Part shown: positions 28,099 to 62,468 of the stretch, in pieces
How positions within the stretch are numbered: position 1 is the stretch's first letter
Layout of the letters: each line of letters begins with the position of its first letter
Assembly (NCBI GenBank): GCA_902531175.1
Contig: CACADE010000001.1
Span: forward strand, 186,001-250,000
Direction: 5' to 3'
Source of the DNA: an uncultured Pelagibacteraceae bacterium
GTDB lineage: Bacteria > Pseudomonadota > Alphaproteobacteria > Pelagibacterales > Pelagibacteraceae
Length of the DNA stretch: 64,000 bases
Notes under the pieces: generated by a model
The model's database searches: none
The model's input: only the letters and a program-made list of their open reading frames with translations
Told to the model about the DNA's origin: nothing
Translations under genes and position numbers: made by a program

Positions 28099-28322
28099 CT
28101 AGGATTTTCTTTTAAAAATTTAATATAGTTGATTACTTCATCAAATTTGTCATCAGGAATATCTTTATAAGTAGAATTAAATTTGTTTTTTACACATATT
28201 GCTACATGAGCGTATGGATTTCTTCCTTTTGGATGATTTGGATGATCAGGAAGTTGACCATCCAAATAATCGCCAGCTTCCTGAATAATTTTCCAGAGTT
28301 TACTTGCGTTTTCTTTGTTCAT
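28095..28322 (-). CDS. Small protein with phage-antirepressor-like C-terminal segment, 75 residues
   Basis: Encodes 75 mostly polar residues. The second half, GRNPYAHVAICVKNKFNSTY then KDIPDDKFDEVINYIK, resembles the C-terminal segment of ORF6C/BRO-type phage antirepressor and related DNA-associated proteins, where a pattern of SYKDIP followed by a helix is common. This is recognition by eye. The stop overlaps the threonine aldolase stop by four bases, and the gene is divergent from the methyltransferase gene of the putative defence operon with 92 bases between. It could regulate that operon. Confidence 0.6.
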   Translation of the reverse strand: MNKENASKLWKIIQEAGDYLDGQLPDHPNHPKGRNPYAHVAICVKNKFNSTYKDIPDDKFDEVINYIKFLKENPS

Positions 28323-28414
28323 ACCTCACAAAATCTTGCTTTATCTCAAAATCCTCTAGTTTATTACCTAGTGTCCTATAAAATCCCTTAATAATTTATT
28401 AACTTATTTCAAAT
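28323..28414. promoter_or_regulatory. Divergent intergenic region upstream of the methyltransferase-helicase-nuclease operon
   Basis: This 92-base AT-rich gap must hold the promoters of both the operon and the small minus-strand gene. CTAGT occurs twice, at 28355-28359 and 28368-28372, followed by a TATAAAAT stretch near 28377 that could be a minus-10 box for the operon. There is no good Shine-Dalgarno before the methyltransferase ATG. No tRNA or attachment-site repeat is seen. Confidence 0.35.
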
Positions 28415-31078
28415 ATGCAAATAGATAAAATATCAAATAACATAAAAAGTCTTTATAAAAATTATTCAGAAAAAAATTTTATTTTTGAATTTATAGATTC
28501 ATTTTCTTTTTATCCAAAAAATACAATAACCAGATTAAAAGGAGACAGAAATTTATCAAATAAAGAGAATGAATTAATATGGAAAGATCGAATTTATTAT
28601 GTGAATTGCAAAGATATTAAAGAAGATATACATATTTTTATAAGTAATCTCAAAGAAGATAATAATATCAAAAAACAAAAAATTAGATTTTTAATTGTAA
28701 CCAATTTTGATTTGTTTCTTAGTATAGATATTAAAACAAAACAATCTTTAGAGTGTAAATTTCTTGAAATACATAAATTTATAGATTTTTTTTTACCATT
28801 AGTAGGTATAGAAAAATTTCAAACTATAGAGGAAAGTCCTGCGGATATAAAAGCATCAAATAATTTAGGTAAGCTTTATGATCAAATTTTAAAAGATAAC
28901 AAATATTATGATTTAACTAAACATAGATATTCTATGAATATTTTTTTTACTCGTTTGCTATTTTTATATTATTCAGATGATTCAGGAGTTTTTGAAAAAA
29001 ATTTATTTCTCAAAACAATAAGTAATTTTACTAAATCAGATGGAAAAGATCTTCATATTTTTTTTGATAAATTATTCGAAATTTTAAAAGTAAATAAAAA
29101 AGATAATACCCCAAGTTATTTTGAAAAATTTCCAAACGTAAATGGTTTTTTATTCAAAGATAAAATTCATTTGCCAAAATTTACAAGAAAAACAAGAGAT
29201 ATGATTATTGAATTTGCTACTTTGGATTGGCAAAATATTAATCCTGATATTTTGGGGTCCATGCTCCAAGAAGTTGTTAGTCCTGATGAGAGAGAGGAAG
29301 AAGAGATGCACTATACATCAGTGCCGAATATCTTGAAAGTTTTGGATCCTTTATTACTCGATGAAATAAAAAAAAAAATTGAAAATGCTGATAAAGATGA
29401 AAACAAATTAAAAAAAATATTGTTACACATACATAATTTAAAAGTCTTTGATCCTGCATGTGGCTCAGGGAATTTTCTAATTATTGCTTACAAACAATTA
29501 TGTTTGCTAGAAATAGAGATTATAAAAATATTAAAGGAAATTAATCCTGAAAATTGGAAACTAGTAATGCCAGGAATAAAAATAAGTCAATTTTTTGGTA
29601 TTGAAAAATCTCACTTTGCAACTGAAACTGCAAAATTATCTCTTTGGTTAGCGGAGCATCAAATGAATTTGATTTATAAAGACGTTTTTGAAAAAATAAA
29701 TCCATCTTTACCTATTGAAGATAATGATAAAATAATTTGTGATAATTCTATACGTGTAAAATGGGAGAAGTTGTTTTCTAAAGAAAAAATTGACTCAAAT
29801 ATTATAATTGTTAGCAATCCACCCTTTAAATCAAAAGCAAATAGAAACAAAGCTCAACAAGAAGATGTAAAATATATACTTGGTAACTCAAGTATACTTA
29901 ATTATGTTGGATTGTGGTTTTTGAAATCTGCAGATTTTACAGACCAGTTTCCTTCTACTAAAATTGGACTTCTTGCAACAAATTCAATTAATAAAGGTGA
30001 GCAAGTTGAAATATTATGGAAAAAAATTTTGCAAAAAAAAATAAAAATATTCTTTGCTCATAAATCATTTAAATGGAAAAATAATGCAAGAAATAATGCC
30101 ACAGTTATTGTTTCTATTATCTGTATGTCAAAAAAAAATATTTCCAATAAATTTTTAGCAATAAATGAAAGCTCAAGCTTAGTAGAAAATATTAATCCTT
30201 ATTTAATACCTGGACCTGATATAATTGTTAAAAAATCATCAGAGCCAATATTCTCTCTCCCTAAAATGACCCTAGGGGAAATGGCCAGGGATGGTGGAAA
30301 TTTATTTTTGAATTCTAGAGATGTTGACATGTTACTCTCAGAAAATCCAAACTGTGAAAAAATAATCAAACCATTTATTGGTGCTGAAGAATTTATTGAA
30401 GGAACAAAGAGATGGTGTCTCTGGATTAATGAAAATGAAATTAAAAACTTTCAAAACATAAAATTTATTAAAAATAGATTACAAAAAGTTGAGAGCTATA
30501 GGTTATCCAGTCGAAATTTAACTACTCAATCTTTTTCAAAAAAACCTTACAGATTTGTTGAAATACGCAATCAAGAAAAAGATACTATATTTATTCCTGA
30601 AAATTCTACTTCAAATAGAACATACGTGCCGATTGGTTATGCTGATAAAAATTCAATTCTATCTAATAAATTAAAGATTATTTACGCACCTGAGCTATAC
30701 TTATTTGCTTTATTATCGAGTAAAATGCACAATATTTGGATTGATAGTATTGGTGGAAAGTATGGCCCAAGTTTTATTTATTCTACTAGGATAATTTACA
30801 ATAATTTTCCTATCCCATCAATTAAAGAGGAAGAAAAAAAGGAATTAAAAAAACTCTCAAACGAGCTTCTTGATTTAAGAAATAAATTTTTTGATAAAAA
30901 TATTGCTTACCTTTATAATAATGAAACTATGCCTAATTCTCTTAAAAAAATTCATAATAAAATAGATGATCTAGTAGATAAGATTTATGCAAACAAAATA
31001 TTTGAAAGTGATCAGGACAGACTTTCATTCCTATTCAAAATGTATGCTAATAAAAACCAAAATAATGAATTATTTTAA
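28415..31078 (+). CDS. MmeI-family N6-adenine DNA methyltransferase lacking an obvious nuclease domain
   Basis: An 887-residue DNA methyltransferase. Residues about 1-290 match the helical spacer of MmeI-type proteins (WQNINPDILGSMLQEVVSPD near 272) but I see no PD-ExK nuclease motif at the N-terminus, where type IIL enzymes carry one. The family HYTS box is at 299-302, motif I VFDPACGSGNF at 344-354 and catalytic motif IV NPPF at 468-471. The target-recognition region lies around 560-760, and the C-terminal helices (LSSKMHNIWIDSIGGKYG, then YSTRIIYNNFPIP) are typical. It should methylate adenine in a specific site. Its stop overlaps the helicase start (TAATG). Confidence 0.88.
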   Translation: MQIDKISNNIKSLYKNYSEKNFIFEFIDSFSFYPKNTITRLKGDRNLSNKENELIWKDRIYYVNCKDIKEDIHIFISNLKEDNNIKKQKIRFLIVTNFDLFLSIDIKTKQSLECKFLEIHKFIDFFLPLVGIEKFQTIEESPADIKASNNLGKLYDQILKDNKYYDLTKHRYSMNIFFTRLLFLYYSDDSGVFEKNLFLKTISNFTKSDGKDLHIFFDKLFEILKVNKKDNTPSYFEKFPNVNGFLFKDKIHLPKFTRKTRDMIIEFATLDWQNINPDILGSMLQEVVSPDEREEEEMHYTSVPNILKVLDPLLLDEIKKKIENADKDENKLKKILLHIHNLKVFDPACGSGNFLIIAYKQLCLLEIEIIKILKEINPENWKLVMPGIKISQFFGIEKSHFATETAKLSLWLAEHQMNLIYKDVFEKINPSLPIEDNDKIICDNSIRVKWEKLFSKEKIDSNIIIVSNPPFKSKANRNKAQQEDVKYILGNSSILNYVGLWFLKSADFTDQFPSTKIGLLATNSINKGEQVEILWKKILQKKIKIFFAHKSFKWKNNARNNATVIVSIICMSKKNISNKFLAINESSSLVENINPYLIPGPDIIVKKSSEPIFSLPKMTLGEMARDGGNLFLNSRDVDMLLSENPNCEKIIKPFIGAEEFIEGTKRWCLWINENEIKNFQNIKFIKNRLQKVESYRLSSRNLTTQSFSKKPYRFVEIRNQEKDTIFIPENSTSNRTYVPIGYADKNSILSNKLKIIYAPELYLFALLSSKMHNIWIDSIGGKYGPSFIYSTRIIYNNFPIPSIKEEEKKELKKLSNELLDLRNKFFDKNIAYLYNNETMPNSLKKIHNKIDDLVDKIYANKIFESDQDRLSFLFKMYANKNQNNELF

Positions 31079-33006
31079 TGACTAACGTAATTGACGTTGA
31101 ATACAAATCTACTGGTAAAAGTCTAAATATTGATAACCTCGGTATGAGGGAAATGCAAAGGAAAGCTTTTCAAAAAAGAAATGAAAAGTATATTTTAATA
31201 AAAGCTCCACCAGCATCTGGAAAATCAAGGGCTCTTATGTTTATTGGTTTAGATAAAATATACAACCAAGGAATACAAAAAGTAATTGTTTCAGTTCCAG
31301 AGAGAACAATAGGTAAATCTTTTCAAAAAACCTTTCTAAAAAAAAATGGTTTTTTTGCTGACTGGGATTTTGATGAAAAATATGATTTATGTACACCAGG
31401 TGATGAAGGTAAAACAGTATTATTCAGAAATTTTTTGAATGATACTTCTGCAAAAATTTTAGTTTGCACACATTCAACTTTTAGAAGATCTTATAACCAA
31501 TTAAATCCAGAGATATTTAATAATACTCTAGTTGCAATTGATGAGTTTCATCATGTATCTGTTGATGAAGCTAATAAGTTAGGTCGAGTACTTAATACTT
31601 TAATGAAAAAATCAAATGCACATATAGTTGCTATGACTGGCTCATATTTTAGAGGAGATAGTGTGGCCGTATTACTCCCAGAGGATGAAGCTTTGTTTAA
31701 AATAGTTACTTATAACTATTATGACCAATTGAATGGTTACAAATATTTAAAAACATTAGGTATTGGGTATCATTTTTACCAAGGGGAATATATTCAAGCA
31801 ATTGATGAAGTTTTAGACACAAATAAAAAAACTATAATTCATATTCCTCACACCATTTCCGGTGAATCTTTAAAGGATAAATCAAGAGAGGTTGACGGTA
31901 TTTTAGATGTAATTGGAGAGTTTCAAAATAGAGATAAAAAAACAGGAATTTTAAATATAAAGAGAAAAAATGATGGAAAAATATTAAAGGTAGCCGACCT
32001 TGTAACTGATACTAAAGATAGAGAGGTAACTCTAGATTTCCTAAGGAGCATGTCTAAGCTAGATGATGTAGATATTATTATTGCAATGGCTATGGCTATA
32101 GAGGGATTTGACTGGCCGTATTGTGAGCATGCTTTAACTATTGGCCATAGAGCTTCATTAACCCAAATTATACAAATTATTGGCAGGGCAACTCGTGATA
32201 GTGAAAACAAAACACACTCTCAATTTACAAATCTAATTGTAGAACCAGATGCAGAGTCTAATGAAGTAATAATATCAGTTAATACTATGCTTAAAGCAAT
32301 ATCAGCCTCATTATTAATGGAGCAAGTTTTAGCCCCTAATGTAAATTTTAAAAGTACAAAATCTGAAAAGTCTGATGATGATGATGTTGTGGTCAAAGGT
32401 TACAAAAAACCCTCAAAAAAAGTTCAAGAAATTATAGATACTAATTTAAATGATCTTAAGGCAAATATGCTACAGGATACGAATATACTTAAAGCAATGA
32501 CTGGAGCTGTATCACCAGAGGTATTAAATAAAGTAATGATACCTGAGTTTCTTCAAAAACAACATCCAGATCTAACTAATGAAGAAAATGAGCAATTAAG
32601 ACAATATTTTATTTTGAATACACAGATAAAGGCTGGTCAAATTAAAGAAAAAAATAATACAAAAATTATAACTGTAGCCAATCAATTTTATAATTTAGAT
32701 GAACTTTCTATTGACCTAATTGACTCCATTAACCCTTTTCAAAAAGCTTATGAAGTAACTTCTAAACATATAAATTCAAATTTACTTAAAGCAATAAGCA
32801 ATATTATGCACTCCCAGTCTAACAGAATATCTATGTCTGATGGAGAAGCAATTTTACTTTGGAAAGAAAAAATTCCTCAATTTCAGAAAGAAAATGGGAG
32901 ATTGCCAGATATAAACTCTGTAAACGAGGAAGAAAAAAGAATGGCAGAAGCTATTGAATATTTAAAAAGAAAAAAAAGAGAATATTTAAAAAATAAAAAA
33001 GATTAA
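31078..33006 (+). CDS. Superfamily 2 helicase/translocase of the putative defence operon
   Basis: A 642-residue ATP-dependent nucleic-acid motor. Walker A is PPASGKS at 44-50, the Walker B/DEAD-type box is DEFH at 155-158, motif III is TGS at 187-189 and motif VI is QIIGRATRD at 366-374. IEGFDWPYCEHALTIGH near 341 is the motif V region. The architecture up to about residue 400 is like the R subunits of type I/III restriction enzymes and related helicases. The C-terminal 240 residues are charged, helical and not recognised, ending in a Lys-rich tail. No nuclease motif was seen. It is coupled to the methyltransferase by a one-base overlap. Confidence 0.88.
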   Translation: MTNVIDVEYKSTGKSLNIDNLGMREMQRKAFQKRNEKYILIKAPPASGKSRALMFIGLDKIYNQGIQKVIVSVPERTIGKSFQKTFLKKNGFFADWDFDEKYDLCTPGDEGKTVLFRNFLNDTSAKILVCTHSTFRRSYNQLNPEIFNNTLVAIDEFHHVSVDEANKLGRVLNTLMKKSNAHIVAMTGSYFRGDSVAVLLPEDEALFKIVTYNYYDQLNGYKYLKTLGIGYHFYQGEYIQAIDEVLDTNKKTIIHIPHTISGESLKDKSREVDGILDVIGEFQNRDKKTGILNIKRKNDGKILKVADLVTDTKDREVTLDFLRSMSKLDDVDIIIAMAMAIEGFDWPYCEHALTIGHRASLTQIIQIIGRATRDSENKTHSQFTNLIVEPDAESNEVIISVNTMLKAISASLLMEQVLAPNVNFKSTKSEKSDDDDVVVKGYKKPSKKVQEIIDTNLNDLKANMLQDTNILKAMTGAVSPEVLNKVMIPEFLQKQHPDLTNEENEQLRQYFILNTQIKAGQIKEKNNTKIITVANQFYNLDELSIDLIDSINPFQKAYEVTSKHINSNLLKAISNIMHSQSNRISMSDGEAILLWKEKIPQFQKENGRLPDINSVNEEEKRMAEAIEYLKRKKREYLKNKKD

Positions 33007-33010
33007 AAAA

Positions 33011-34192
33011 TTGTATAATTATAAAAAGGAATTATTAGATATATTTGAAAATGATAATTCTCCGTTATTAAATATAAGCTCTCAGACATCTTCAACAACA
33101 AATGAACAAAAATTAATTGATATATTTAATGAAATAAATCTTTTCTTTAAAAAAAACAATAGAGAACCAAAAACAAACGAAGATATTAATGAAAGACGAT
33201 TGTCTATAATTTTAAATGAAATTCGTGCCGACTTTAATAAAAAAAATATTCTGAAGTCACATGATGTAAACAATCTTTTGGGAGATTTAAGAGAGATATC
33301 ATCATTACAAGATATTTTTGAAAATGATTATAGAAATATATTAGACACATCTATAGAAGATGAATTATTTGACATAAAATCTTTTGATTTAGAAAGAGCA
33401 AGAACTGACTTTGTTGCCAAAAGAAAACCTATAGAAAATTTTGAAAAATATAAAGACGTTTTCAAAAAAATTCATTCAGAATTAAAATCAAATAATAGAA
33501 AAATAATTAAATTTGAAGATAAAGATCTAAAGGAAGGAAATTTCTTTGTGCTTGATGGAATGGTTTTTCTTTTAGAAAAAATTGATAATAAATCTACCAA
33601 AATATTTAATGATAAATCACAAGGTAATCGGAAAAGATATGACCCAAGAACTATTTGTATTTTCGAAAATGGTATGAAATCAAACATGTATTTAAGATCA
33701 TTACAAAAATTATTATACAAGAATGGAAAACGTGTAAGTGAGTCACAAGATGAAACATTAGAAATATTTAATAAAAATTTCAATGTAGAGAATATCAGTG
33801 GATATATTTATGTTCTCAGGTCTCTCAGTGAAAAACAACAAATAAAGAACATACCTGATTTATATAAAATTGGATTTTCTAAAAACGAAGTAAGTATGAG
33901 AATAAAAAATGCACCAAATGAAACTACATTCTTAAATGATAAAGTTGAAATTATATCTGAAACCAAAATAAAAGGCTACAAACCAGGTAGTATAGAAAAC
34001 ATAATTCAAAGTTTTTTCGCTGCTAGAAAAATGAATATTGAAGTTTTAGATAAAAAAAATAAAAAAGTCTATCCAGATGAGTGGTTTTCAGTCCCAATTG
34101 ATATTATCCATCAAGCCATTGATCTATTACGTAAAAATAATTTAATTGGGCATAGATATGATGAAATTAAAAAAGAAATTTATAAGGTTTAA
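33011..34192 (+). CDS. GIY-YIG (T5orf172-type) nuclease with a conserved N-terminal region
   Basis: A 393-residue protein. The C-terminal part (about 262-375) is a GIY-YIG domain of the T5orf172/MUG113 type: GYIYVLRS at 264-271 as the first strand, LYKIGFS at 284-290 as the second, R297, a helix with E329 as probable metal ligand and the EWF motif at 357-359. The N-terminal 250 residues hold a conserved block (RTDFVAKRKP at 131-140, EGNFFVLDGMVFLLEK at 175-190 and TICIFENGMKSNMYLRSL at 214-231) without named function. No ATG fits, so a TTG five bases after the helicase stop is used as start. It is the likely DNA-cutting component. Confidence 0.83.
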   Translation: MYNYKKELLDIFENDNSPLLNISSQTSSTTNEQKLIDIFNEINLFFKKNNREPKTNEDINERRLSIILNEIRADFNKKNILKSHDVNNLLGDLREISSLQDIFENDYRNILDTSIEDELFDIKSFDLERARTDFVAKRKPIENFEKYKDVFKKIHSELKSNNRKIIKFEDKDLKEGNFFVLDGMVFLLEKIDNKSTKIFNDKSQGNRKRYDPRTICIFENGMKSNMYLRSLQKLLYKNGKRVSESQDETLEIFNKNFNVENISGYIYVLRSLSEKQQIKNIPDLYKIGFSKNEVSMRIKNAPNETTFLNDKVEIISETKIKGYKPGSIENIIQSFFAARKMNIEVLDKKNKKVYPDEWFSVPIDIIHQAIDLLRKNNLIGHRYDEIKKEIYKV

Positions 34193-34273
34193 TATATTTT
34201 TAAATGATTTATTTTTTGAGTAGTTCTACTTTGCTTAAAATTAGCTATTTGATTTACTAAAAAAGTTCTAGGA

Positions 34274-49580: not shown

Positions 49581-50036
49581 TTATTTATTGTCTTCAGAAA
49601 TTACTTTTATATTTATTTCAGTTTGTATTTCGGAATGCAAATTTAAAATTACTTTAAATGTACCCAAAGTTTTTATTTCTTTAACAGGTTGTATTTGAGA
49701 TGGATTTATCTCGATTTTTTCTTTTTCTATGATCATTTTTGAGATTTCTGACGGTTTAACTGAACCATAAAGTTCTTTATTTTCAGTGCTTAGTTTTTTT
49801 ATTAAAAACTCTTTGTTTTGCAAAGTTTCTTTTAATGTTTTTGCAGCAGCTTTCTTTTCTTGATCTTTTTTGTCTAGCTCAACTTTTATCTTTTCAACTT
49901 CTTTTATATTTTCTTTGGATGCAAATAATGCCTTTTTATTAGAAATAAGGTAATTTCTTGCATAACCTCTCTTAACATCTATAATTTCACCTATTGAGCC
50001 TAACTTTCTCACGTTTTCTAATAAAATAACTTTCAT
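49581..50036 (-). CDS. rplI: 50S ribosomal protein L9
   Basis: The 151-residue protein binds 23S rRNA at the base of the L1 stalk. The start KVILLENVRKLGSIGEIIDVKRGYARNYL is the L9 N-terminal domain, and VILNLHSEIQTEINIKVI is its C-terminal domain. The long lysine-rich connecting helix (about 45-95) is intact. It is two bases downstream of rpsR. The operon rpsF-rpsR-rplI is standard. Confidence 0.98.
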   Translation of the reverse strand: MKVILLENVRKLGSIGEIIDVKRGYARNYLISNKKALFASKENIKEVEKIKVELDKKDQEKKAAAKTLKETLQNKEFLIKKLSTENKELYGSVKPSEISKMIIEKEKIEINPSQIQPVKEIKTLGTFKVILNLHSEIQTEINIKVISEDNK

Positions 50037-50038
50037 TT

Positions 50039-50308
50039 TTAAATTAATGCTAAATTTCTAGCTCTCTTTATTGACAAAGATAATTCCCTCTGTTTTTTTT
50101 GACTAACTGAAGTAATTCTTGATGGTAAGATTTTTCCGTTTTCAGATATATATCTTTTTAATAACTTAATATTTTTATAATCTATTGTAGGAGCACCTTT
50201 ACCCGAAAGGGGACACTTCTTTTTAAATTTGTATTTTTGATTTTGAAAAACACTTAGCTTAGAAAAGTTATTCTGTGAATTTTTCTTTTTTAATACTTTT
50301 TTTTTCAT
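50039..50308 (-). CDS. rpsR: 30S ribosomal protein S18
   Basis: An 89-residue basic protein that binds next to S6 in the 30S platform. The pattern [24 protein letters not shown] then [23 protein letters not shown] is diagnostic. The N-terminal 20 residues (lysine-rich) are longer than in many bacteria. The ATG overlaps the rpsF stop by one base. Confidence 0.97.
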
Positions 50309-50652
50309 TATATTGATTTCTTGCCGTTTTCATCGTTTTTGTTAAAGTAATTCGTTTCTGTGTCTATTTTTTTAACTTTAACGGTTAGATATCGCAATAA
50401 AGACTTGTCAATTTTTTCACTCTTTTCTAGTTTTGATATTGTATTACCATTTCCTTTTATTTTAAAATGTAAATAATTACCTTTTTTGTTTTTTTTTATT
50501 AAATACGACAAGTTCATCAATCCCCAATTTTCAATTTTAAGTATGTCCCCATTATTTTCTTGGACTATTTTACTATATTTTTCCTCAATTTGCTTAAATT
50601 GATTGGGAGATACATCAGGTCTTGCAATTATAGTATGTTCGTAATAGCTCAT
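50308..50652 (-). CDS. rpsF: 30S ribosomal protein S6
   Basis: A 114-residue protein that pairs with S18. The opening [17 protein letters not shown] and the [22 protein letters not shown] core are typical. [12 protein letters not shown] is the last strand. It is the first gene of rpsF-rpsR-rplI and is divergent from fabD with 85 AT-rich bases between, which must hold both promoters. In many bacteria this leader binds S6-S18; none of the known motifs could be confirmed here by eye. Confidence 0.97.
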
Positions 50653-50737
50653 TATAATCTTTTAAAAAAAAGAGGATATACTATTATAAAATTTTAAATA
50701 CAATAAAAAAAAATTTAAATTTTTTAAAGTTTTTTCT

Positions 50738-51667
50738 ATGTTTTCACTTCTATTTCCGGGCCAAGGATCCCAACACATGGGAATGGCAAAAGAATTATAC
50801 GATAATTTTGATTACATAAGAAAATTATTTGAAGAGGCAGATGATCTTCTAAAATATAAAATTAGTGAAATTATATTTGAGGGCCCAACAGAAAAATTAA
50901 ACAGTACTCAGCATACACAACCTGCTATATTTTTAACAAGTTACTCCATATATTTAACTATTTATAAAGATACAAATTTTGATGCTAGTAAAGCAGAATT
51001 TTTTGCAGGACATTCGTTAGGAGAATATTCAGCTTTATGTTGTGCCGAGTCATTAAATTTTAAGGATACTTTGCTATTGCTTAGAGACAGAGGAAATGCA
51101 ATGAACAATGCCGTTAAAAATGGAAATGGAGGTATGGTTGCAATTCTTGGTGCTGATAAAAATAAAGTTGACCAGCTACTATCAGACAATCAAGATGATT
51201 TTAAATGTTACATAGCAAACGATAATTCACCAGGACAGATCGTAGTGAGTGGAGAGCTTAAAAATTTAGAATTATTACAATCAAAGTTATCAAATGAAAA
51301 GATTAAAAATATAAAACTTCCAGTAAGCGCACCTTTTCATTGCCCACTAATGAAAAATGCAACTATTGAAATGTTAGATAAAATAAAGTCAATAGAATTT
51401 AAAACACCAACTGTGAAAGTTTACTCTAATGTCTCAGCAACTTTTTCAAAAAATTCCAATGAAATAAAAAAACTTCTTTTAGAACAAATAGAAAGTCCAG
51501 TAAGATGGAGAGAAATTATAGAAAATATGTCAAAAAATGGTGTAAATAATTTTATCGAAATTGGTCCTGGTAAAGTATTATCTGGATTAGTTAAAAGAAT
51601 TGATAGAAATAATATTGTAAATCAAGTAAATAATTTAGAAGATATTAAAAGACTTAATTTAAAATGA
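50738..51667 (+). CDS. fabD: Malonyl-CoA:ACP transacylase
   Basis: Loads malonate on acyl carrier protein for fatty-acid elongation. The 309 residues have the N-terminal FPGQGSQ, the nucleophile serine in AGHSLGEYSAL near 91 and the catalytic His in SAPFHCPLM near 200. The GQIVVSGE segment near 166 is also typical. It starts the fabD-fabG-acpP set and overlaps fabG by four bases. Confidence 0.97.
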   Translation: MFSLLFPGQGSQHMGMAKELYDNFDYIRKLFEEADDLLKYKISEIIFEGPTEKLNSTQHTQPAIFLTSYSIYLTIYKDTNFDASKAEFFAGHSLGEYSALCCAESLNFKDTLLLLRDRGNAMNNAVKNGNGGMVAILGADKNKVDQLLSDNQDDFKCYIANDNSPGQIVVSGELKNLELLQSKLSNEKIKNIKLPVSAPFHCPLMKNATIEMLDKIKSIEFKTPTVKVYSNVSATFSKNSNEIKKLLLEQIESPVRWREIIENMSKNGVNNFIEIGPGKVLSGLVKRIDRNNIVNQVNNLEDIKRLNLK

Positions 51668-52401
51668 TAAATCTAAAAAATACTAATATTTTATTAACAG
51701 GGGCTACTGGCATCATTGGTAATTCAATTCTTGAAAAATGTTATGATTATGGAGCAAATATTCTGGCCACAGGAACAAACAATGAAAAATTAGAGAAGTT
51801 AAAACTTAATTATCCAAATATTAATATCAAAGTATTTGATATTTCTAAACATGATCAAATCGAGAACTTTTTAGAAGAAGTAAATATTTTATTTAAAAAT
51901 AAAATTGATATTTTAATTAATAATGCAGGAATCACACTGGACAATCTATCTATAAGAATGAAAGAAAGTGAATGGAAAAGTGTTATTGATATAAATCTAA
52001 CTTCTACTTATTTAACAAGTAAGTTTGCTATTAAGAAAATGTTAAAAAATAAGAGTGGAAAGATAATAAATATTACATCTGTTGTTGGGCATACAGGAAA
52101 TATTGGTCAGGCAAATTATGCTGCATCTAAATCTGGAATAATTGGAATGTCAAAAAGCTTAGCTTTAGAATATGGAAAAAAAAATATAAAAATAAATTGT
52201 ATTTCACCAGGATTTATAGAAAGTAATATGACAGACAAAATTTCAGAGACTCATAAAGAATTATTAAAATCAAAAATATCGCTAGATAGGTTTGGACAAC
52301 CTGTTGATGTTGCTAATACAGTACTTTTTTTATCCTCTGATTTATCTAATTATATTACTGGGGAGACAATACATGTGAATGGTGGCATGTATTTTAGTTG
52401 A
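51664..52401 (+). CDS. fabG: 3-oxoacyl-ACP reductase
   Basis: NADPH-dependent reduction of beta-ketoacyl-ACP. The 245-residue SDR has TGATGIIGNSI at 13-23, NNAGIT near 87, the catalytic Ser in ITSVVGHTG near 138 and YAASKSG with Tyr and Lys near 151. The end, GETIHVNGGMYFS, is the usual FabG C-terminus. The start overlaps fabD (ATGA), and the stop codon lies within a perfect TTGACA hexamer likely to serve acpP. Confidence 0.96.
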   Translation: MINLKNTNILLTGATGIIGNSILEKCYDYGANILATGTNNEKLEKLKLNYPNINIKVFDISKHDQIENFLEEVNILFKNKIDILINNAGITLDNLSIRMKESEWKSVIDINLTSTYLTSKFAIKKMLKNKSGKIINITSVVGHTGNIGQANYAASKSGIIGMSKSLALEYGKKNIKINCISPGFIESNMTDKISETHKELLKSKISLDRFGQPVDVANTVLFLSSDLSNYITGETIHVNGGMYFS

Positions 52402-52425
52402 CAAAATAATATAAATATTTATTAA
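52398..52425 (+). promoter_or_regulatory. Probable acpP promoter
   Basis: A consensus -35 hexamer TTGACA (52398-52403) overlaps the fabG stop codon. A TATTAA -10-like hexamer follows after a 16-base spacer (52420-52425). Transcription would start about 18 bases before the acpP ATG, leaving room for the AAGGAAG ribosome-binding site. A dedicated promoter would explain the higher demand for acyl carrier protein. Confidence 0.55.
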
Positions 52426-52449
52426 CGAATTAACTTTAAAAGGAAGAAT

Positions 52450-52689
52450 ATGTCTGAAGATATTTCAAGTAAGGTAAAAAAAATAGTTGCAGATCATCTG
52501 GGAATTGATGAGGCAAAAGTTACAGAAGAATCAAGTTTTATTGATGACCTCGGTGCTGACAGTTTGGATACAGTTGAATTGGTAATGGCATTTGAAGAAG
52601 AATTTGGATCTGAAATCTCCGATAGTGATGCAGAGAAAATCCTAACTGTTGGTGATGCTGTTAAATTTATCGAAAATAAAGCAAATTAA
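52450..52689 (+). CDS. acpP: Acyl carrier protein
   Basis: Carries growing acyl chains on phosphopantetheine. The 79-residue acidic protein has the attachment serine S38 in [12 protein letters not shown]. The four-helix pattern is normal. It is preceded by a good Shine-Dalgarno (AAAGGAAG) and its own probable promoter. In most alphaproteobacteria fabF follows; here gmk starts 12 bases after the stop. Confidence 0.98.
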
Positions 52690-52701
52690 TTTTTTTAATT
52701 A

Positions 52702-53331
52702 ATGACCAGCTTCACTAAAGGTGGTATGATAATTTTATCTTCACCTTCGGGAGCAGGAAAAACAACACTAGTTAAAAAAATATCAAAAAATAAAAATTAT
52801 TTTACTTCTATTTCACATACCACTAGACCGCCAAGACCTAAAGAAAAAGATGGCAAAGATTATTTTTTCATTTCTAAAATAAAATTTAAAGAATTGATCT
52901 CTAAAAAAGAATTTTTAGAATATGCAAATGTTTTTAACAATTTTTATGGATCTTCCAAAAAAATTGTTTATGAAAAACTTGAAAAAAGTCAAAATGTTCT
53001 CTTTGATATTGATTGGCAAGGTACAAAAAAAATAAAAAAGAAAAAATTAAAATATAAATTACTTACTGTATTCATATTACCACCAACAAAAAATGAACTT
53101 TATAAAAGATTACTAAAAAGAGAGAGAAAAAATCACGTAACTGTGAAAAAAAGAATGAAGCAATTTAAAAGTGATATATTGCATTGGAAGGATTATGATT
53201 ATGTTGTAGTAAATGATGATTTAATAAAGTGTTACAAAAAAATTATGTCTATAATTTCCAAAAAAAATAAAAAAAAACCTTTTTATGATAAAAAGAAAAT
53301 TAAAAAACATATTGAAAACTTATTAAGTTAA
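52702..53331 (+). CDS. gmk: Guanylate kinase
   Basis: Phosphorylates GMP to GDP with ATP, downstream of guaA in nucleotide metabolism. The 209 residues have the P-loop SSPSGAGKTT at 13-22 and the GMP-binding SISHTTRPPRPKEKDGKDYFF near 36. FDIDWQGTKKIKKK near 95 is the Walker B region. The C-terminal 25 residues are exceptionally lysine-rich, which reflects the AT-rich coding bias. It converges on rsmA with a nine-base overlap. Confidence 0.96.
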   Translation: MTSFTKGGMIILSSPSGAGKTTLVKKISKNKNYFTSISHTTRPPRPKEKDGKDYFFISKIKFKELISKKEFLEYANVFNNFYGSSKKIVYEKLEKSQNVLFDIDWQGTKKIKKKKLKYKLLTVFILPPTKNELYKRLLKRERKNHVTVKKRMKQFKSDILHWKDYDYVVVNDDLIKCYKKIMSIISKKNKKKPFYDKKKIKKHIENLLS

Positions 53332-54114
53332 TTCTTCATATATTTTTGTTATTTCTAGATACTTTTGAACTGAAATATTTTGAGGCCTATCTTTTAAGTT
53401 CAATCCTATTTTCTCACAAATTGACGATTGGTTCTGAAAAATTTTCTTAAATGGTTTGTTAATCATTTTTCTTCTTTGGGAAAAAAATGTATTAGTTATA
53501 TATTCAAGATTATCTGCTCTGTTTATTTTAAAAATCTCATCTTTAGGTTTTAAAGCGATTAAACTACTCCAAATTTTTGGTATGGGATTAAAATTTTCTG
53601 GAGCAATATCAAATATCTTCTCTTTATGTAATTTCCATGATGTAAAAATAGCCAATCTTCCAAAGTATTTTGTATTTTCTTCAGCAATAATTCTATCGGC
53701 CACTTCTTTTTGAAATATAAAAATAAATTTTTCATAAAATTTGTTAAGATTTTCTAATTTTAAATAATTTATTAAGATTTTCGTAGATATATTATAGGGT
53801 AGGTTGCCAAATACTTTAATTGGTTTATCGCAAATAAAATTATTATAACAATTTAAAATATCATCATTTATTAATTTAACTTTAGAACCAAATTTGTCTT
53901 TTAATTTTGCGGATAGTTGTTTGTCTTTTTCTACAATAATCAATTTTTTTGGTTTTTTTTGAATTAAAAGATTCGTTAAATTTCCTGTTCCTGGACCTAT
54001 TTCCAACAAAATATCATTTGAATTTATTTCACCTTCATCGACTATTTTTTCTAAAATATTTATATTTTTAAGAAAATTTTGACCTAAGCTTTTCTTGGCT
54101 AGAAAGTCACTCAT
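53323..54114 (-). CDS. rsmA: 16S rRNA dimethyladenosine transferase
   Basis: Dimethylates two adjacent adenosines near the 3' end of 16S rRNA. The 263 residues show KSLGQNFLKN at 8-17, the SAM site LEIGPGTGNLT near 39 and the catalytic NLPYNIST near 104. NPIPKIWSSLIALKP near 181 is also typical. It overlaps pdxA by four bases, and pdxA-rsmA following surA-lptD is a common bacterial order. Confidence 0.97.
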   Translation of the reverse strand: MSDFLAKKSLGQNFLKNINILEKIVDEGEINSNDILLEIGPGTGNLTNLLIQKKPKKLIIVEKDKQLSAKLKDKFGSKVKLINDDILNCYNNFICDKPIKVFGNLPYNISTKILINYLKLENLNKFYEKFIFIFQKEVADRIIAEENTKYFGRLAIFTSWKLHKEKIFDIAPENFNPIPKIWSSLIALKPKDEIFKINRADNLEYITNTFFSQRRKMINKPFKKIFQNQSSICEKIGLNLKDRPQNISVQKYLEITKIYEELT

Positions 54115-55070
54115 AATTTATTTAAAAATTTCATTGCATAGATAAATGAAGATGGATCAGATATATTTTTTCCCAACATTTTATGATTTGGTCCATGATC
54201 AGGTGAAATTCTTATAAATGGTAACCCCAAAGTTATATTTATTGCATTAAAATTGTATAATGTTTTTATTGGAGTCAACACTTGATCATGATACATGCCA
54301 ATAACAACATCATACTTTCTTATATTTTCTTTTAAAAAAAAAGTATCTGCAGAAAAAGGACCATAAATTCTTATTTTATTTTTTTTTAAAAAATTTATAG
54401 CAGGTACTATAATTTTTTCCTCCTCACTAATTTTATTTATGGTTTCACAATGAGGATTAAGACCTAAAACTGCAATCTTAGGACTCTTTTTTAATATATT
54501 TCGGTAAAAATTATTTATCTTTTTAGCTGAGTTAACAATTTTTTCTTTTGAAATATTTTTTGTTACATTTTTTATGGGTAAATGTGTAGTTAATGGAGAT
54601 ACAGAAAGTTCTCTATTGTAAATCAACATTACTTCATTTTTCGATTTAGATTTCTTAGACAGGTACTCTGTAATACCTAAATATTTCTTCTTTAAAAAAG
54701 TTTTTTTTGAGACTGGACCGTTTATTAAAGCAAATTTTTTGTTATCTTTTCTCATTAGATCTAGAGCATGTTTGAAACATTGGTTGATATATTCGTTAGA
54801 TGATTCGGATATTCTACCAAAAGCTTTTTTAAATTTAAGATTTATATCAATTATGTTTGGATTATTAAAATCTGCCTCTTCTATAGTATTTATTTTCTTT
54901 AAGTAAAATTGTAATTTTAATTTTTTTAATTGTTTTTTTAATAATTCGTGACTCCCTATAATTATAATTTTCTTCCTTTTATTTTTATTCTTTTTAAAGA
55001 ACTTTCCCAGTATTTCCGAGAAAGTGCTATTTGGCTCGCCTAGCAAAATAATAATATATTTAATATTCAT
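54111..55070 (-). CDS. pdxA: 4-hydroxythreonine-4-phosphate dehydrogenase
   Basis: Oxidises 4-phosphohydroxythreonine in pyridoxal phosphate synthesis. The 319 residues contain the ALINGPVSKKTF segment near 117, the metal-binding histidines in TTHLPIKNV near 157, and GPFSADTFF near 237 with GMYHDQVLTPIK near 259. ISPDHGPNHKMLGKN near 288 is the family's C-terminal motif, close to the GTA form found elsewhere. It is sandwiched with overlaps between the surA-like gene and rsmA. PLP made here serves gcvP and the threonine aldolase. Confidence 0.94.
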   Translation of the reverse strand: MNIKYIIILLGEPNSTFSEILGKFFKKNKNKRKKIIIIGSHELLKKQLKKLKLQFYLKKINTIEEADFNNPNIIDINLKFKKAFGRISESSNEYINQCFKHALDLMRKDNKKFALINGPVSKKTFLKKKYLGITEYLSKKSKSKNEVMLIYNRELSVSPLTTHLPIKNVTKNISKEKIVNSAKKINNFYRNILKKSPKIAVLGLNPHCETINKISEEEKIIVPAINFLKKNKIRIYGPFSADTFFLKENIRKYDVVIGMYHDQVLTPIKTLYNFNAINITLGLPFIRISPDHGPNHKMLGKNISDPSSFIYAMKFLNKL

Positions 55071-55986
55071 AAATACTCTGATTTTGTTTAATTTTTCTAA
55101 AAAATAGTAGTGAAAATTGGTTTAATTGTTTATTTTTTTCAAATTTTATAAATTCCTGAAGCTCTTTATTAATGTCAATTTTTTCTTTAATTATTTTTTT
55201 TTCATTAACTTTTAATATTAAATAACCATTTGGATATTTAATAGGTTTTGAAAAATCACCAACACTAATATTTTTTATAACGTTATTTATTTCTTTTGAT
55301 AATAGAGTTTCTTTTACCCAGCCTATACTTCCACCATTAGACGAACTATTTGAAATACTAAACTTAGATGCTGAATACTCAAAACCATTTTTATTAATAT
55401 TATTTTTTATTAATTTGAATTTTTTATCTTCAGTTTCGTTTTGATTTAGTTCAAAAAGTATCTCTGATAAATTATAACTAAATTTTAGATCACTAGATAT
55501 TTTTTTTTCTAACTGTTTTTTTAGATAATCTCTATCAATTTTAACTAAATTATAAAATTTATTGTATATAAGTTCGTTCCAAAGAGCTTCTATTTTTAGC
55601 TTATCAATTAAATTTTTCTCTTCAATATTCTCATTTTTAATAAGCTCTTCAAATTGTTTATCATTCTTTATATTTTTAAAATTATAAAGATTTATCCTTA
55701 ATTCATCGATAAAATTATATTTTTTTTCTAAGTCAAAATATTTCTTTAATTCTTTTTTTTTTATAATTTCCTTAATTAAAGAGTTTTTTGATAATTCTTT
55801 GATTTCAGTAGAATTTAATTTTTTTAAATCCGGTCTAAGAAAAAGAAGGAGTTTTTGTTCATTTAATATATCAACATTTGTAATTATTTCATTACCTATC
55901 TTATATTTTATCGAAATTTCTGAATATGCATTTAAAGTTAAAAAAAAACAAAAAAAAACAAAAAAATATTTCATTAATTTTGTCAT
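55060..55986 (-). CDS. SurA-like periplasmic chaperone/peptidyl-prolyl isomerase
   Basis: A 308-residue protein with a signal peptide (about 5-22, ending AYSE). The N-terminal region is the SurA-N type helical chaperone fold. A single parvulin domain lies at about 165-265, recognised by SASKFSISNSSSNGGSIGW and ISVGDFSKPIKYPNGYLILKV. E. coli SurA has two parvulin domains, so this is a short form. It would fold outer-membrane proteins. It lies directly downstream of lptD, with one base between stop and start, matching the common lptD-surA order. Confidence 0.85.
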   Translation of the reverse strand: MTKLMKYFFVFFCFFLTLNAYSEISIKYKIGNEIITNVDILNEQKLLLFLRPDLKKLNSTEIKELSKNSLIKEIIKKKELKKYFDLEKKYNFIDELRINLYNFKNIKNDKQFEELIKNENIEEKNLIDKLKIEALWNELIYNKFYNLVKIDRDYLKKQLEKKISSDLKFSYNLSEILFELNQNETEDKKFKLIKNNINKNGFEYSASKFSISNSSSNGGSIGWVKETLLSKEINNVIKNISVGDFSKPIKYPNGYLILKVNEKKIIKEKIDINKELQEFIKFEKNKQLNQFSLLFFRKIKQNQSIYEY

Positions 55987-55987
55987 T

Positions 55988-58375
55988 TTATTTTAAAATA
56001 CTATTTGCAACACCGATCTCAGTGAAAGGTATAATTTTTATTAAAAAAGAAAGACTTGTGTTTGGTTCTAAATTTCCATCTTTGTAAAATGATTTTGAAT
56101 AATTTAAACTTATTGACAAACAGTCAGTTAAATACTCATAGTTTAAATCATAAAACTGAGTAAAGTTATCCACTAAATCTTTTGACGTTTTGAAACTTAA
56201 AAAATTTTCTTCATTCAATGCATAACTCGTCTTATTTGTGATATTTTCAGAGTTTCCAAAATCGTTATCTTCAGTAAAATAATAAAAATTAGATATGAAA
56301 TTATTAACTCTCAGGTCAATATTAATTCCTTCTAGATTAGAATATTTTAAGTCTCTATCATAAGAAAATACGTATCCTAATCCTAAATTATTGTTTAAGC
56401 TCAAATTCATATTTCCAAAAATATCAGATCTAGTTTCATTTAATTTCGATTTTACTGGTAGATCATTACTCTTTTTTATTTTAATAACATTGGCTAAATT
56501 TAAATCAAATATCCTTCCATTATTATTATTTTCTCTTTGAAATTCTAAACCCAATGTTAATGATTCACCGCCTTCCACTTGATAATTTGATCCAATCCTA
56601 TTTAAACTGTAAACATTATCGTAATTTAGTCTAATATCCTTTGATGTTATATTTCTGTTTCCATTAGGACTATATCTGAAAGACATTTTTGGTTTAAGGA
56701 AATTTGTATACTGATCCATTTTTTTTTGTAATGGGTAGCTTCCATCAATTTTAACAATTCCATAAAGATTGTATTCTGTATTTTCATTAAAGTTCAAAGA
56801 ATTTTGAGAATAAATATTTGTATTTTTTAATAGCACATCATAATTTGTAACAATTCCATTTTTATTAATAAAATCAAATGAACTAAATAAAAAATCATTA
56901 TTATAAATTGCTTCAGTAACATTAGTATTATAATTCTTGTGAAATCCGTATGATCTAAAATCAAAAGATCCATTATATTTTTTATTAATATCTATATTTT
57001 TTGAAAAATTAAAATTCGGAAATATATATTGATATCTGTCATGATACCCTTTTGATAAATCCTCATAAATTAATATAGATGAGTTTAATTTAGTCTTATT
57101 ATCTATTCTCCAATTTAAATCTAATTTGGAATTCAATAAACTTTCGCTTTTAATTAGAGGAGATGTCTCGCTCAATTTATGTGTTTTGAGGAAGTTGTCA
57201 TCCTTTACATCTTGTAAATTTAAAACAAAATCAATTTTCTCATTTAATGAACCAACTTGATTGTAAAAAAAATGCGACTTTGTTCCTTCGGATCCAATTA
57301 ACATACTGAAGTCACTTGTAATTTTGGAATTTTCAAGAGATTGTCGGTATTCATTTTGAAGCAAATAACTTTTGTCAGCGTATATCCTTGGATTAAAAGT
57401 TAAATCTTTATCATGCGATATAACTTTATAATATGGAATATTAATTGATGTTCCTAGTTTTTTTGAACTACCATATGATGGAGTTAGAAATCCAGACTTT
57501 CTTTTAACACTTGGATCTGGGTGATTAAAATAAGGTAAATAAAATAACTTTTTATCTAAAATTTTTAACCATGAATTCTTATATTCAAAAATCTTATCGT
57601 CTTTATTGTGTATGAATTCATTACTTGTAAGTTCCCATCCTCTACATTTTTTATTATTTATATTACAAGTACTAAAAACTGCTTTATGAACCTCAGTGAT
57701 GTTTTTGTTTAAAATTGCTGACCTACCTCTCATTTTTGGGTCATTATTTTCATTACCAAAATAATTATTTATAAAGTCAATTTTTAGTTCTTTTCCAATA
57801 ATTTCGTTATTTTTAAGATTAATTATTAGATCTTCAAATATAAACTTATTATTATTACTATCAGTTATCGTAGATAAATTTGACTTAATTATCTCATTTT
57901 CTAAATCATATTTAAATTTTTCTTCAAACTCATATTTATTATTTAGATTATCCTTAATGATTGTATATTCATTGCTATATAGACTATTTTTTAATCTATC
58001 AAAGTAAATAGAATTGGATGTAATATCATATTTATCACTAATTTTTGTTTTTGTCTCAACTTCACTAAATACTATCTCATCAATTGTTTTGTATATTATT
58101 TTTTCCCCATAAATAATAACTTCATTGATATAATCTTCAAAAATGACATTATTTAAAAAGATTACTTCATTGGTTATTTTATCATAAATAGCTTTATCAG
58201 ATTTTATATTAATTTGTTTTTCTGGTATCTTCGTTTCAGAATTAAATCCGATAATTAAATTACCTTGATTTTTAACCTCCATATTTTTTGCATCAAAAAT
58301 TATCTCACTAGATAAATTAGTATTTATAAAGAGAAAGAGAAAAAATATTTTTAAATTTAGCCTAAGTATTTTCAT
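55988..58375 (-). CDS. lptD: LPS-assembly protein LptD
   Basis: Outer-membrane barrel that inserts lipopolysaccharide at the cell surface. The 795-residue precursor has a signal peptide (about 1-22). The N-terminal OstA/jellyroll-type domain (about 25-200) is followed by the DUF3769/LptD barrel, with ILNKNITEVHKAVFSTCNIN near 208 and KLFYLPYFNHPDPSVKRKSGFLTP near 272 as signature. Four cysteines are visible near 217, 223 and the C-terminus (DCLS), so the disulfide pattern may be reduced. It overlaps lptG by 14 bases. Confidence 0.93.
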   Translation of the reverse strand: MKILRLNLKIFFLFLFINTNLSSEIIFDAKNMEVKNQGNLIIGFNSETKIPEKQINIKSDKAIYDKITNEVIFLNNVIFEDYINEVIIYGEKIIYKTIDEIVFSEVETKTKISDKYDITSNSIYFDRLKNSLYSNEYTIIKDNLNNKYEFEEKFKYDLENEIIKSNLSTITDSNNNKFIFEDLIINLKNNEIIGKELKIDFINNYFGNENNDPKMRGRSAILNKNITEVHKAVFSTCNINNKKCRGWELTSNEFIHNKDDKIFEYKNSWLKILDKKLFYLPYFNHPDPSVKRKSGFLTPSYGSSKKLGTSINIPYYKVISHDKDLTFNPRIYADKSYLLQNEYRQSLENSKITSDFSMLIGSEGTKSHFFYNQVGSLNEKIDFVLNLQDVKDDNFLKTHKLSETSPLIKSESLLNSKLDLNWRIDNKTKLNSSILIYEDLSKGYHDRYQYIFPNFNFSKNIDINKKYNGSFDFRSYGFHKNYNTNVTEAIYNNDFLFSSFDFINKNGIVTNYDVLLKNTNIYSQNSLNFNENTEYNLYGIVKIDGSYPLQKKMDQYTNFLKPKMSFRYSPNGNRNITSKDIRLNYDNVYSLNRIGSNYQVEGGESLTLGLEFQRENNNNGRIFDLNLANVIKIKKSNDLPVKSKLNETRSDIFGNMNLSLNNNLGLGYVFSYDRDLKYSNLEGINIDLRVNNFISNFYYFTEDNDFGNSENITNKTSYALNEENFLSFKTSKDLVDNFTQFYDLNYEYLTDCLSISLNYSKSFYKDGNLEPNTSLSFLIKIIPFTEIGVANSILK

Positions 58376-59447
58376 TTATCCTAACCAGTCCTATCGAGCA
58401 TATTAAGAATAATATTAAGTGTGGAGTCCATACTGATAAATATATGGGTAGTGTTCCATTGGAACCTAAAAGATTTGAAAAGTAATTTAAATAATAAACC
58501 AATACAGATACAAAAACACTGAATAAAATTGAGAAAAATGTAGATCTTATAAATTGAGTTTTTTTAATCAATAAATATCCTAAAATAGACATGAGAACAT
58601 AAAATACGGACATACTATATATTTTATTTAGATGGATTTTAACGTCTTTATTTGAATAACCAATTTTTTGATAATTATTTGAAAGTTCATGTAATTGATA
58701 AATATTTAAAGAATTTAAATTTGAAAATAGTTTAGAAATTATTTCCCCATTAAAGGACGAATTATAAACATAAGTTAAATAATTTTTCTTACCTCCATCT
58801 TTAGATGTCATAGTCACATTTTTCAAACTCCAATTTTTTGCCGTTATATCCGCAGTTTCCGCTTTTAAGGTATTATTTTTTTGATAATATTTGTCTGATT
58901 CGGTTATTGTAATAGATCTTAAATTATTATTATCAAATTTTTCAGCATGTATTATAAAGTTTCTATTATCTAATTCTTCTTTTATCCATAAGCCATTCTC
59001 ATTTACAACTGCTAAATATTCATTGGTATTTGAGAACTTATTCTTTACTTCAAGATAACGACTTTTTAAATTTGAAGATAAAGAATAAAAAAATAAAATT
59101 AAACATATGCCTAAAATTATTGATAAAAATGATAAAATGCCTAAAATTCGCATATTACTTATCCCGTTGGATTTCAGTATGTCTAACTCATTTTTATCTC
59201 TAAGAACAATGTAAAAATAGTTTGTTGCTATTAAAAATATAAATGGAAAGATTTCAAATAGTAATGATGGAGCATTTAAAGCTGATAAATATAAAGCATA
59301 ATAAATTTCAACATTATATTTTTCAAAAAATCTTATCTCTTCAAAGGTATTTATTATAAGAGCAATACAGAGAAAAACAAAACTAACTATAAAAAAGTTT
59401 TTTAAGAATAGATTAAATATATAGATTTGATATTTTTTTATAATCAT
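58362..59447 (-). CDS. lptG: LPS export system permease LptG
   Basis: Inner-membrane partner of LptF in the LPS-extracting ABC transporter. The 361 residues have six membrane helices, three at each end, around a periplasmic jellyroll domain (about 130-265). ELDILKSNGISNMRILG near 87 is the coupling-helix motif. The ATG overlaps the lptF stop (ATGA). The ATPase LptB is not in this window. Confidence 0.93.
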   Translation of the reverse strand: MIIKKYQIYIFNLFLKNFFIVSFVFLCIALIINTFEEIRFFEKYNVEIYYALYLSALNAPSLLFEIFPFIFLIATNYFYIVLRDKNELDILKSNGISNMRILGILSFLSIILGICLILFFYSLSSNLKSRYLEVKNKFSNTNEYLAVVNENGLWIKEELDNRNFIIHAEKFDNNNLRSITITESDKYYQKNNTLKAETADITAKNWSLKNVTMTSKDGGKKNYLTYVYNSSFNGEIISKLFSNLNSLNIYQLHELSNNYQKIGYSNKDVKIHLNKIYSMSVFYVLMSILGYLLIKKTQFIRSTFFSILFSVFVSVLVYYLNYFSNLLGSNGTLPIYLSVWTPHLILFLICSIGLVRINENT

Positions 59448-60574: not shown

Positions 60575-60628
60575 TGAAATTATAAATTTAATAAATATAC
60601 AACAATATCTATTAAATATTTCAAAAAA

Positions 60629-62065: not shown

Positions 62066-62468
62066 CATTCAACAAACTTTATCGATAATCAAACCTGATG
62101 CAGTTGAAAGAAACCTTCAGGACCAAATTAAAAAAGATTTTAAAAATAATGGCTTTGAAATTATTAAAGAAAAAAAAATTCATATATCTAAAGAGGAAGC
62201 TGAGAGATTTTATAAAGTTCACGAGACTAAACCATTTTACAATGATTTATGTGCCTATTTATCATCAGGACCGATAGTGGTTATGACTTTGGAGAGAGAT
62301 AATGCTGTAATGGAAAATAGAAAGTTAATGGGAGCAACAAATCCAACTGAAGCAGAAGATGGAACTTTAAGGAAAAAATATGGCATTTCAATTGACAAAA
62401 ATTCTGTTCATGGTTCTGATAGTCTTGAAAATGCTAAAATTGAATTAGATTTTTTTTTTAATAATTAG
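62058..62468 (+). CDS. ndk: Nucleoside diphosphate kinase
   Basis: Equilibrates NTP and dNTP pools. The 136-residue protein starts QTLSIIKPDAVE and carries the phospho-acceptor histidine in NSVHGSDS near 115. RKLMGATNPTEAEDGTLR near 87 is standard. I chose the ATG at 62058, eight bases before the pepA stop, instead of an in-frame TTG at 62046. The 3' end overlaps the convergent purN by 11 bases. Confidence 0.97.
   Translation: MSNIQQTLSIIKPDAVERNLQDQIKKDFKNNGFEIIKEKKIHISKEEAERFYKVHETKPFYNDLCAYLSSGPIVVMTLERDNAVMENRKLMGATNPTEAEDGTLRKKYGISIDKNSVHGSDSLENAKIELDFFFNN

Follow-up and report, generated by a model that had tools for sequence, protein, structure and literature searches.

A predicted split restriction-modification operon of the DnmA-YeeB-YeeC type at a variable site in a Pelagibacteraceae genome, and a cargo slot in related operons

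The window analyzed here is a 64,000-nucleotide stretch of contig CACADE010000001.1 from an uncultured Pelagibacteraceae bacterium (assembly GCA_902531175.1), whose genome comprises 1.30 Mb in 25 contigs and is 96.9% complete. Positions 28415-34192 of the window are filled by three co-oriented, intact open reading frames (ORFs) on the plus strand, encoding an adenine methyltransferase, a superfamily 2 (SF2) helicase and a GIY-YIG protein. The helicase gene directly adjoins the methyltransferase gene downstream on the same strand, and the GIY-YIG gene comes next. The features of this operon and of its site are as follows.

28415..31078, plus strand: DnmA/YeeA-like MmeI-family adenine methyltransferase of 887 amino acids (aa), with MmeI_N, helical spacer, methyltransferase, target recognition and C-terminal domains (Pfam, Protein Data Bank (PDB) and PADLOC)
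28418..28897, plus strand: MmeI_N domain lacking the nuclease motif D-x(9-10)-ExK (Pfam domain; motif from aligned columns)
30212..30820, plus strand: MmeI_TRD, the target recognition domain (TRD), with apparently near-independent evolution across the family (Pfam; pairwise-identity correlations)
31078..33006, plus strand: YeeB-like SF2 helicase of 642 aa with intact motifs; relatives 54-60% identical at 80 loci
33011..34192, plus strand: YeeC-like T5orf172/GIY-YIG protein of 393 aa with a TTG start (Pfam, AlphaFold2 and structure search)
33800..34126, plus strand: T5orf172 (GIY-YIG) domain, with G264, Y267, K286, G288, R297, E329, E357 and W358 invariant in 72/72
28360..34247, no strand: segment that close relatives lack at the corresponding intergenic site (approximate ends; empty-site comparison)

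An earlier note on this DNA had proposed an MmeI-family adenine methyltransferase, an SF2 helicase with Walker A, DEFH and motif VI, and a GIY-YIG nuclease, and Pfam searches and motif inspection bear out all three assignments. The note was also right about the one-base overlap of the first two genes, while the second gap is four bases (33007-33010) and not five. The catalytic motifs DPACGSGNF, NPPF, APPASGKS, DEFH, GRATR and the GIY/YIG stretches were all found. The methyltransferase has the whole MmeI domain order at full length (MmeI_N, MmeI_hel, MmeI_Mtase, MmeI_TRD, MmeI_C), aligns over residues 81-878 with the PDB structure of MmeI, 5hr4 (E 7e-152), and matches the PADLOC model REase_MTase_IIG with 841 bits. 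The helicase matches DEAD (4.8e-10) and ResIII (1.1e-7), with Helicase_C under its cut-off, and the GIY-YIG protein matches T5orf172 (5.8e-11) and MUG113 (1.1e-6), with the domain at its C-terminal end. A search of the bacterium's own genome for the T5orf172 family gave no match at E 0.001, although this protein scores 5.8e-11 directly, which we attribute to loss in the first pass of the search. Among solved structures, the helicase had one chance-level match and the GIY-YIG protein none. The AlphaFold2 model of the GIY-YIG protein folds well per domain (mean predicted local distance difference test (pLDDT) 85, predicted template modeling score 0.40); its BFVD matches are viral T5orf172/Hef-like endonucleases, confirming the GIY-YIG fold, and Foldseek of the same model against PDB returned nothing at E 0.001. 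The helicase model is poor (pLDDT 69). Against PHROGs, the helicase matched general DNA-helicase families only, the methyltransferase one unnamed family, and the GIY-YIG protein gave chance-level matches.

Scanning genome contigs with the helicase gave 218 loci, of which the best 80 were kept; this sample leans to close relatives and to the reach of six peptide patterns, and some of its loci are near-duplicates (L028/L035; L013/L018, from one metagenome-assembled genome). A GIY-YIG relative follows the helicase in 79/80 loci from many phyla, the exception (L038) having 0 bases left after the helicase. The gene lies on the operon strand in 78/79, the remaining case being a piece at a contig edge on the opposite strand (L017), and in 74/78 its ORF starts no more than 20 bases from the helicase end. 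In the remaining four, L035, L037, L051 and L064, the two genes are 143-455 bases apart, owing to the start chosen by the ORF caller in L037 and L064 and to a frame break in L035. Where about 10 kb of DNA is available upstream, a methyltransferase lies there in 44/44 loci; overall it is present in 66/80, and the 14 loci lacking it have at most 2.8 kb of upstream DNA each. Because the GIY-YIG linkage holds in 79/80 and the methyltransferase linkage in 44/44, the three genes form one unit and are not chance neighbors. One partial second match to the helicase N-terminus was seen upstream of the complete helicase gene in L036 (1725-1940).

The same gene set reaches beyond these contigs. Of the plasmid records, 228 contain the helicase (115 of these plasmids being predicted conjugative) and 264 a methyltransferase relative; by tblastn, 6 of 13 self-chosen plasmid regions hold the triplet and 7 a lone methyltransferase. 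In a Ligilactobacillus salivarius plasmid (L151, 5767-8442) the methyltransferase of the triplet is annotated in pieces, as two MmeI fragments and a shorter methyltransferase, beside type I restriction-modification (R-M) genes. Relatives are carried by 39 IMG/VR contigs, which are not taken here as viral: 25 have all three genes, 9 the helicase and GIY-YIG genes, 2 the methyltransferase and helicase, and 3 the helicase alone. A phage origin of the operon is not borne out, as none of 50,697 phage records held a full-length helicase and two matched 25% of the query.

The nuclease motif of the methyltransferase was examined in aligned MmeI_N columns. D-x(9-10)-ExK is present in 7/7 lone MmeI homologues and in 0/62 methyltransferases from the clusters; the seven are a self-chosen set, in which the query match began late and lone status was judged by tblastn within the regions at hand. 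The aligned D column is a gap in 62/62 cluster methyltransferases, and the E column holds K in 42, R in 12, S in 3, Q in 2, and N, A and T in one each. The window methyltransferase shares the full MmeI domain order with MmeI and lone type IIL enzymes; unlike these, it lacks D-x(9-10)-ExK and is accompanied by separate helicase and GIY-YIG genes. The PADLOC label REase_MTase_IIG would suit an ordinary stand-alone type IIL/IIG restriction enzyme with the other two genes as chance neighbors, a reading that we consider highly improbable and reject on the missing nuclease motif and the conserved linkage (79/80 and 44/44).

Pairwise identities over 50 loci with three complete genes were compared by rank correlation with 499 permutations. 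Mean pairwise identity was highest in the helicase (0.70), followed by the methyltransferase core (0.56), MmeI_N and the GIY-YIG gene (0.46 each) and the TRD (0.41). The correlations were 0.72 between helicase and GIY-YIG gene, 0.69 between helicase and methyltransferase core, 0.67 between GIY-YIG gene and methyltransferase core, and 0.79 between helicase and MmeI_N (each p 0.002), and only 0.10 between helicase and TRD (p 0.15). The TRD thus appears to evolve almost independently of the other parts, which appear to co-evolve; an exchanged TRD amid a co-evolving rest is expected from changing site specificity. Because MmeI_N tracks the helicase best, the comparison also suggests that MmeI_N is a contact surface for the helicase.

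The helicase and GIY-YIG genes were found in two of 150 genomes searched, the bacterium's own included: this genome and G016, which has all three genes. The site itself was compared in a draw of 101 genus members, again with its own genome included, 9 others of which have both flanking genes on one contig. These genes lie 6,181 bases apart in the window's genome, 276 bases apart in five relatives (G011, G013, G077, G078, G086), 432-433 bases apart in two (G027, G080), and 1,490-1,583 bases apart in two (G010, G039) that carry an unrelated hydrolase-like gene between them; in G089 the empty form matched up to the contig end. In the empty forms, the flanking DNA matches at about 95-97% identity, and the junctions fall near 28359 and 34248. 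Because the flanking genes match without the operon in close relatives, the site is variable, and the operon amounts to 5.9 kb that either this genome acquired or its relatives lost. Direct repeats were sought at the insertion ends and none was convincing, a roughly 25-base overlap of two matches being weak similarity only. Across relatives, the site (window 28100-34270) is empty or holds the operon, the hydrolase-like gene or about 430 bases. From our own reading of the ORFs, we take the flanking genes to be threonine-aldolase-like upstream and Fe/Mn superoxide-dismutase-like downstream. In G016, the second genus member with the genes, a diverged triplet of its own lies at another place (L138, 6067-11855). 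Elsewhere in the window, positions 49581-63775 are low in G+C (to 21%), and their ORFs of at least 150 aa were read by eye as ordinary housekeeping genes.

By gene content and order, the operon is close to certain to be a member of the published dnmA(yeeA)-yeeB-yeeC cluster. PMC9973331 and PMC7261158 describe dnmA-yeeB-yeeC of Bacillus subtilis, with the gene order kept in other bacteria, and since this is the same arrangement, the operon counts as an already known gene set. As in B. subtilis and its homologues, an N6-methyladenine (m6A) methyltransferase without a nuclease motif is followed by an SF2 helicase and a T5orf172/GIY-YIG protein in the same order and on the same strand; we found no difference in gene make-up, and the window proteins are diverged from those of the 80 compared loci. 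Control searches found MmeI_TRD and T5orf172 in the B. subtilis genome, the adjacency of the genes there being taken from PMC9973331. The earlier note's candidate non-canonical system is therefore not supported as new, given this match with a characterized cluster, an outcome that the note itself had named as refuting. Its description of a single self-contained system agrees with the co-occurrence of the triplet across genomes, and the unit is patchily distributed, with an empty site in close relatives. The R-M-like division of labor that it proposed is likewise supported, as a prediction from gene content, the TRD pattern and the lack of the nuclease motif.

Profile searches of the three proteins (Pfam, PADLOC and others) gave no sign that the operon contains the partner genes of type I systems, of BREX (PglZ, BrxC/PglY) or of DISARM (DrmA, the DUF1998 protein DrmB, the PLD protein DrmC), in line with the note. 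The methyltransferase resembles DrmMI of DISARM (5.9e-35), Mad2 of MADS (5e-16) and, weakly, PglX of BREX (4e-4), and neither of the other two operon proteins matched a DISARM, BREX or MADS model of PADLOC at E 0.1. The helicase has weak similarity to PbeA (9e-11), RadD (1.5e-5) and a Dnd restriction model (4.6e-5), the last two far under cut-off, and the operon contains no phosphorothioation genes. DISARM, BREX and phosphorothioate readings were rejected, the similarities being confined to single genes or weak. The operon is like type I R-M (HsdRMS) in that a methyltransferase, a recognition domain, an SF2 motor and a nuclease presumably work together as one machine; unlike type I, its TRD is fused to the methyltransferase in an operon without HsdS, motor and nuclease are two genes and not a single-chain HsdR, and the nuclease is GIY-YIG.

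We propose, with a probability of roughly 0.6, that the operon encodes a split, type I-like R-M system, which for the window copy is a prediction. The TRD within the methyltransferase would recognize an asymmetric site, and the enzyme would place m6A on host DNA. At unmarked sites it would recruit the YeeB helicase, probably through the dead MmeI_N domain; YeeB would then move along or open the DNA, and the GIY-YIG protein YeeC would cut it. For the window copy we infer all of methylation, docking, translocation and cutting. Gene content, intact motifs, kept linkage, a methyltransferase without the nuclease motif, decoupling of the TRD, the eight invariant GIY-YIG residues and the variable site favor this proposal. 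B. subtilis DnmA makes m6A at the non-palindromic site GACGAG (PMC7261158), and that paper cites Morgan et al. 2009 as having noted the absence of the nuclease motif and suggested a scheme like that of type I; Makarova et al. 2011 is cited for defense-island association, as told in PMC9973331/PMC7261158.

Several observations weigh against a working split R-M system, or against parts of the evidence for it. The gap at the D column makes the alignment register unsure at the nuclease motif. If the alternative plausible register is used, 45/62 cluster methyltransferases have an acidic residue in the D place and 4/62 (L009, L011, L070, L082) a following ExK, so that these four may retain a residual nuclease motif; a regular expression, D-x8-11-[EQ]xK, matches 14/62 within the first 130 residues at scattered positions, which blurs a clean split. 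The window methyltransferase has the motif in neither register. The TRD correlations with the GIY-YIG gene (0.16, p 0.04) and the methyltransferase core (0.18, p 0.02) are small yet above zero, and the TRD rates could partly be alignment noise. Within the window copy, near-invariant positions are altered at 17/225 in the helicase (family median 1), 6/42 in the GIY-YIG protein, including H333Q (median 0), and 9/99 in the methyltransferase (median 1). The window branch in the helicase tree is 1.2 and that of G016 1.29 against a median of 0.13, about nine times the median for the window. Because of these altered positions and the long helicase branch, reduced or altered activity of the window copy is possible. 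Lastly, PMC9973331 reports that single deletions in B. subtilis left sensitivity to three phages unchanged and that the DnmA motif is not depleted in phage genomes, and PMC9973331 and PMC7261158 report unchanged plasmid transformation after dnmA deletion.

These published negative results are also what speaks for the operon being a relic, in which the methyltransferase is now a lone regulatory (orphan) m6A enzyme and the helicase and nuclease are inactive, as proposed for B. subtilis. The divergence fits as well, in that the window helicase and GIY-YIG protein are second only to those of G016 in altered near-invariant positions. We nevertheless judge a relic unlikely. The three frames are open and the catalytic motifs intact, and TRD turnover in the family suits restriction more than a fixed regulatory motif. 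Moreover, the window copy and that of G016 are altered at some of the same near-invariant positions, with Gln in both at helicase E363 and GIY-YIG H333, which looks more like a diverged lineage than random decay. Both copies stand apart in the helicase tree from three further Pelagibacteraceae loci that group together (L007, L008, L017), the placement of such long branches being unsure.

The operon might also block phages without classical site cleavage, for example with the helicase sensing replication intermediates and YeeC nicking, while the methyltransferase keeps the system off host DNA. In Vibrio crassostreae, deletion of the first two genes is reported to make the host more sensitive to some phages (as told in PMC9973331), and this result would be compatible with such a mode. 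We hold such a mode to be distinctly improbable, since direct evidence is lacking and the TRD pattern suits site-specific discrimination.

The related operons differ in what lies between methyltransferase and helicase. In the 66 loci with a methyltransferase, this gap is tight (at most 153 bases) in 27, as in the window operon, which has no cargo there, and spans 532-9,070 bases in 39 (for example L027:4909-9889, L057:5793-10004 and L037:7318-9908, in a range from L007 to L086). Except in L031, each of the 39 wide gaps contains one or more ORFs of at least 60 aa, and all 91 of these slot ORFs lie on the operon strand, compared with 207 plus and 122 minus among upstream flank ORFs and 270 plus and 254 minus among downstream ones. 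The tight or cargo state requires 11 changes on the helicase tree over 68 labeled rows, a count made without a shuffle control. Some cargo looks broken, with RhuM fragments in L028 and L035 and pieces in L083.

Pfam searches of 30 of the 91 slot ORFs, mostly one per sequence cluster, gave a match at 0.01 for 20 and none for 10. Over the 74 slot ORFs of at least 120 aa, at 1e-5, the best 25 of 27 Pfam families included RhuM (9), HATPase_c_4 (9), Fic (8), SLFN_AlbA_2 (8), YhcG_C (4), Bro-N (3), SIR2_2 (2), ORF6N (2) and PIN (2), and one each of TIR, CAP12-TIR, Shedu, AAA_13, Abi_C, PDDEXK_3, KilA-N, DUF3800 and an IS200-type transposase; the AAA_13 ORF is presumably PrrC-like. The top single PADLOC models, PDC-S05 and PDC-S23, match 11/74 (best 25 of 183 models). 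PADLOC PDC candidates derive from embedding in R-M operons. Among 74 ORFs drawn at random from 222 flanking ones, no Pfam family exceeded 3 in the best 25 of 69, which were mostly housekeeping and mobile-element genes, and the best 25 of 128 PADLOC models included few defense-type matches (mad2 3, MTase_II 2). By these profile matches, the slot appears rich in defense and toxin families.

R-M operons with embedded effectors have been described before (PMC3710099, PMC12255303 and PMC12988326), and toxin or defense extras between core genes are a further likeness of these relatives to type I R-M (PMC3710099 and PMC12255303). A literature search that fell short of most subscription papers and preprints gave no recognizable report of a cargo slot in a DnmA-YeeB-YeeC operon. 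Joining these observations, we tentatively suggest that the operon may be a chassis with one fixed slot, between methyltransferase and helicase, that swaps stand-alone effectors (SIR2, TIR, Shedu, Schlafen-like, Fic, RhuM, PrrC-like and others), co-expressed as a second line that would fire on inhibition of the core, with the dead nuclease domain of the methyltransferase docking the helicase. We regard this joint reading as possible rather than probable.

The window thus holds an intact DnmA-YeeB-YeeC set in a small marine-type genome, at a site that is empty in close relatives, so that near-identical hosts could serve to compare its cost and benefit. Members of the gene family occur across many phyla and on plasmids; one homologue looks inert and another is reported to affect phages. 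Two direct predictions follow from the patterns of the TRD and MmeI_N. The cargo slot in related operons is a less expected result than the identity of the operon. It offers a further place to seek effectors and is the part most worth following.

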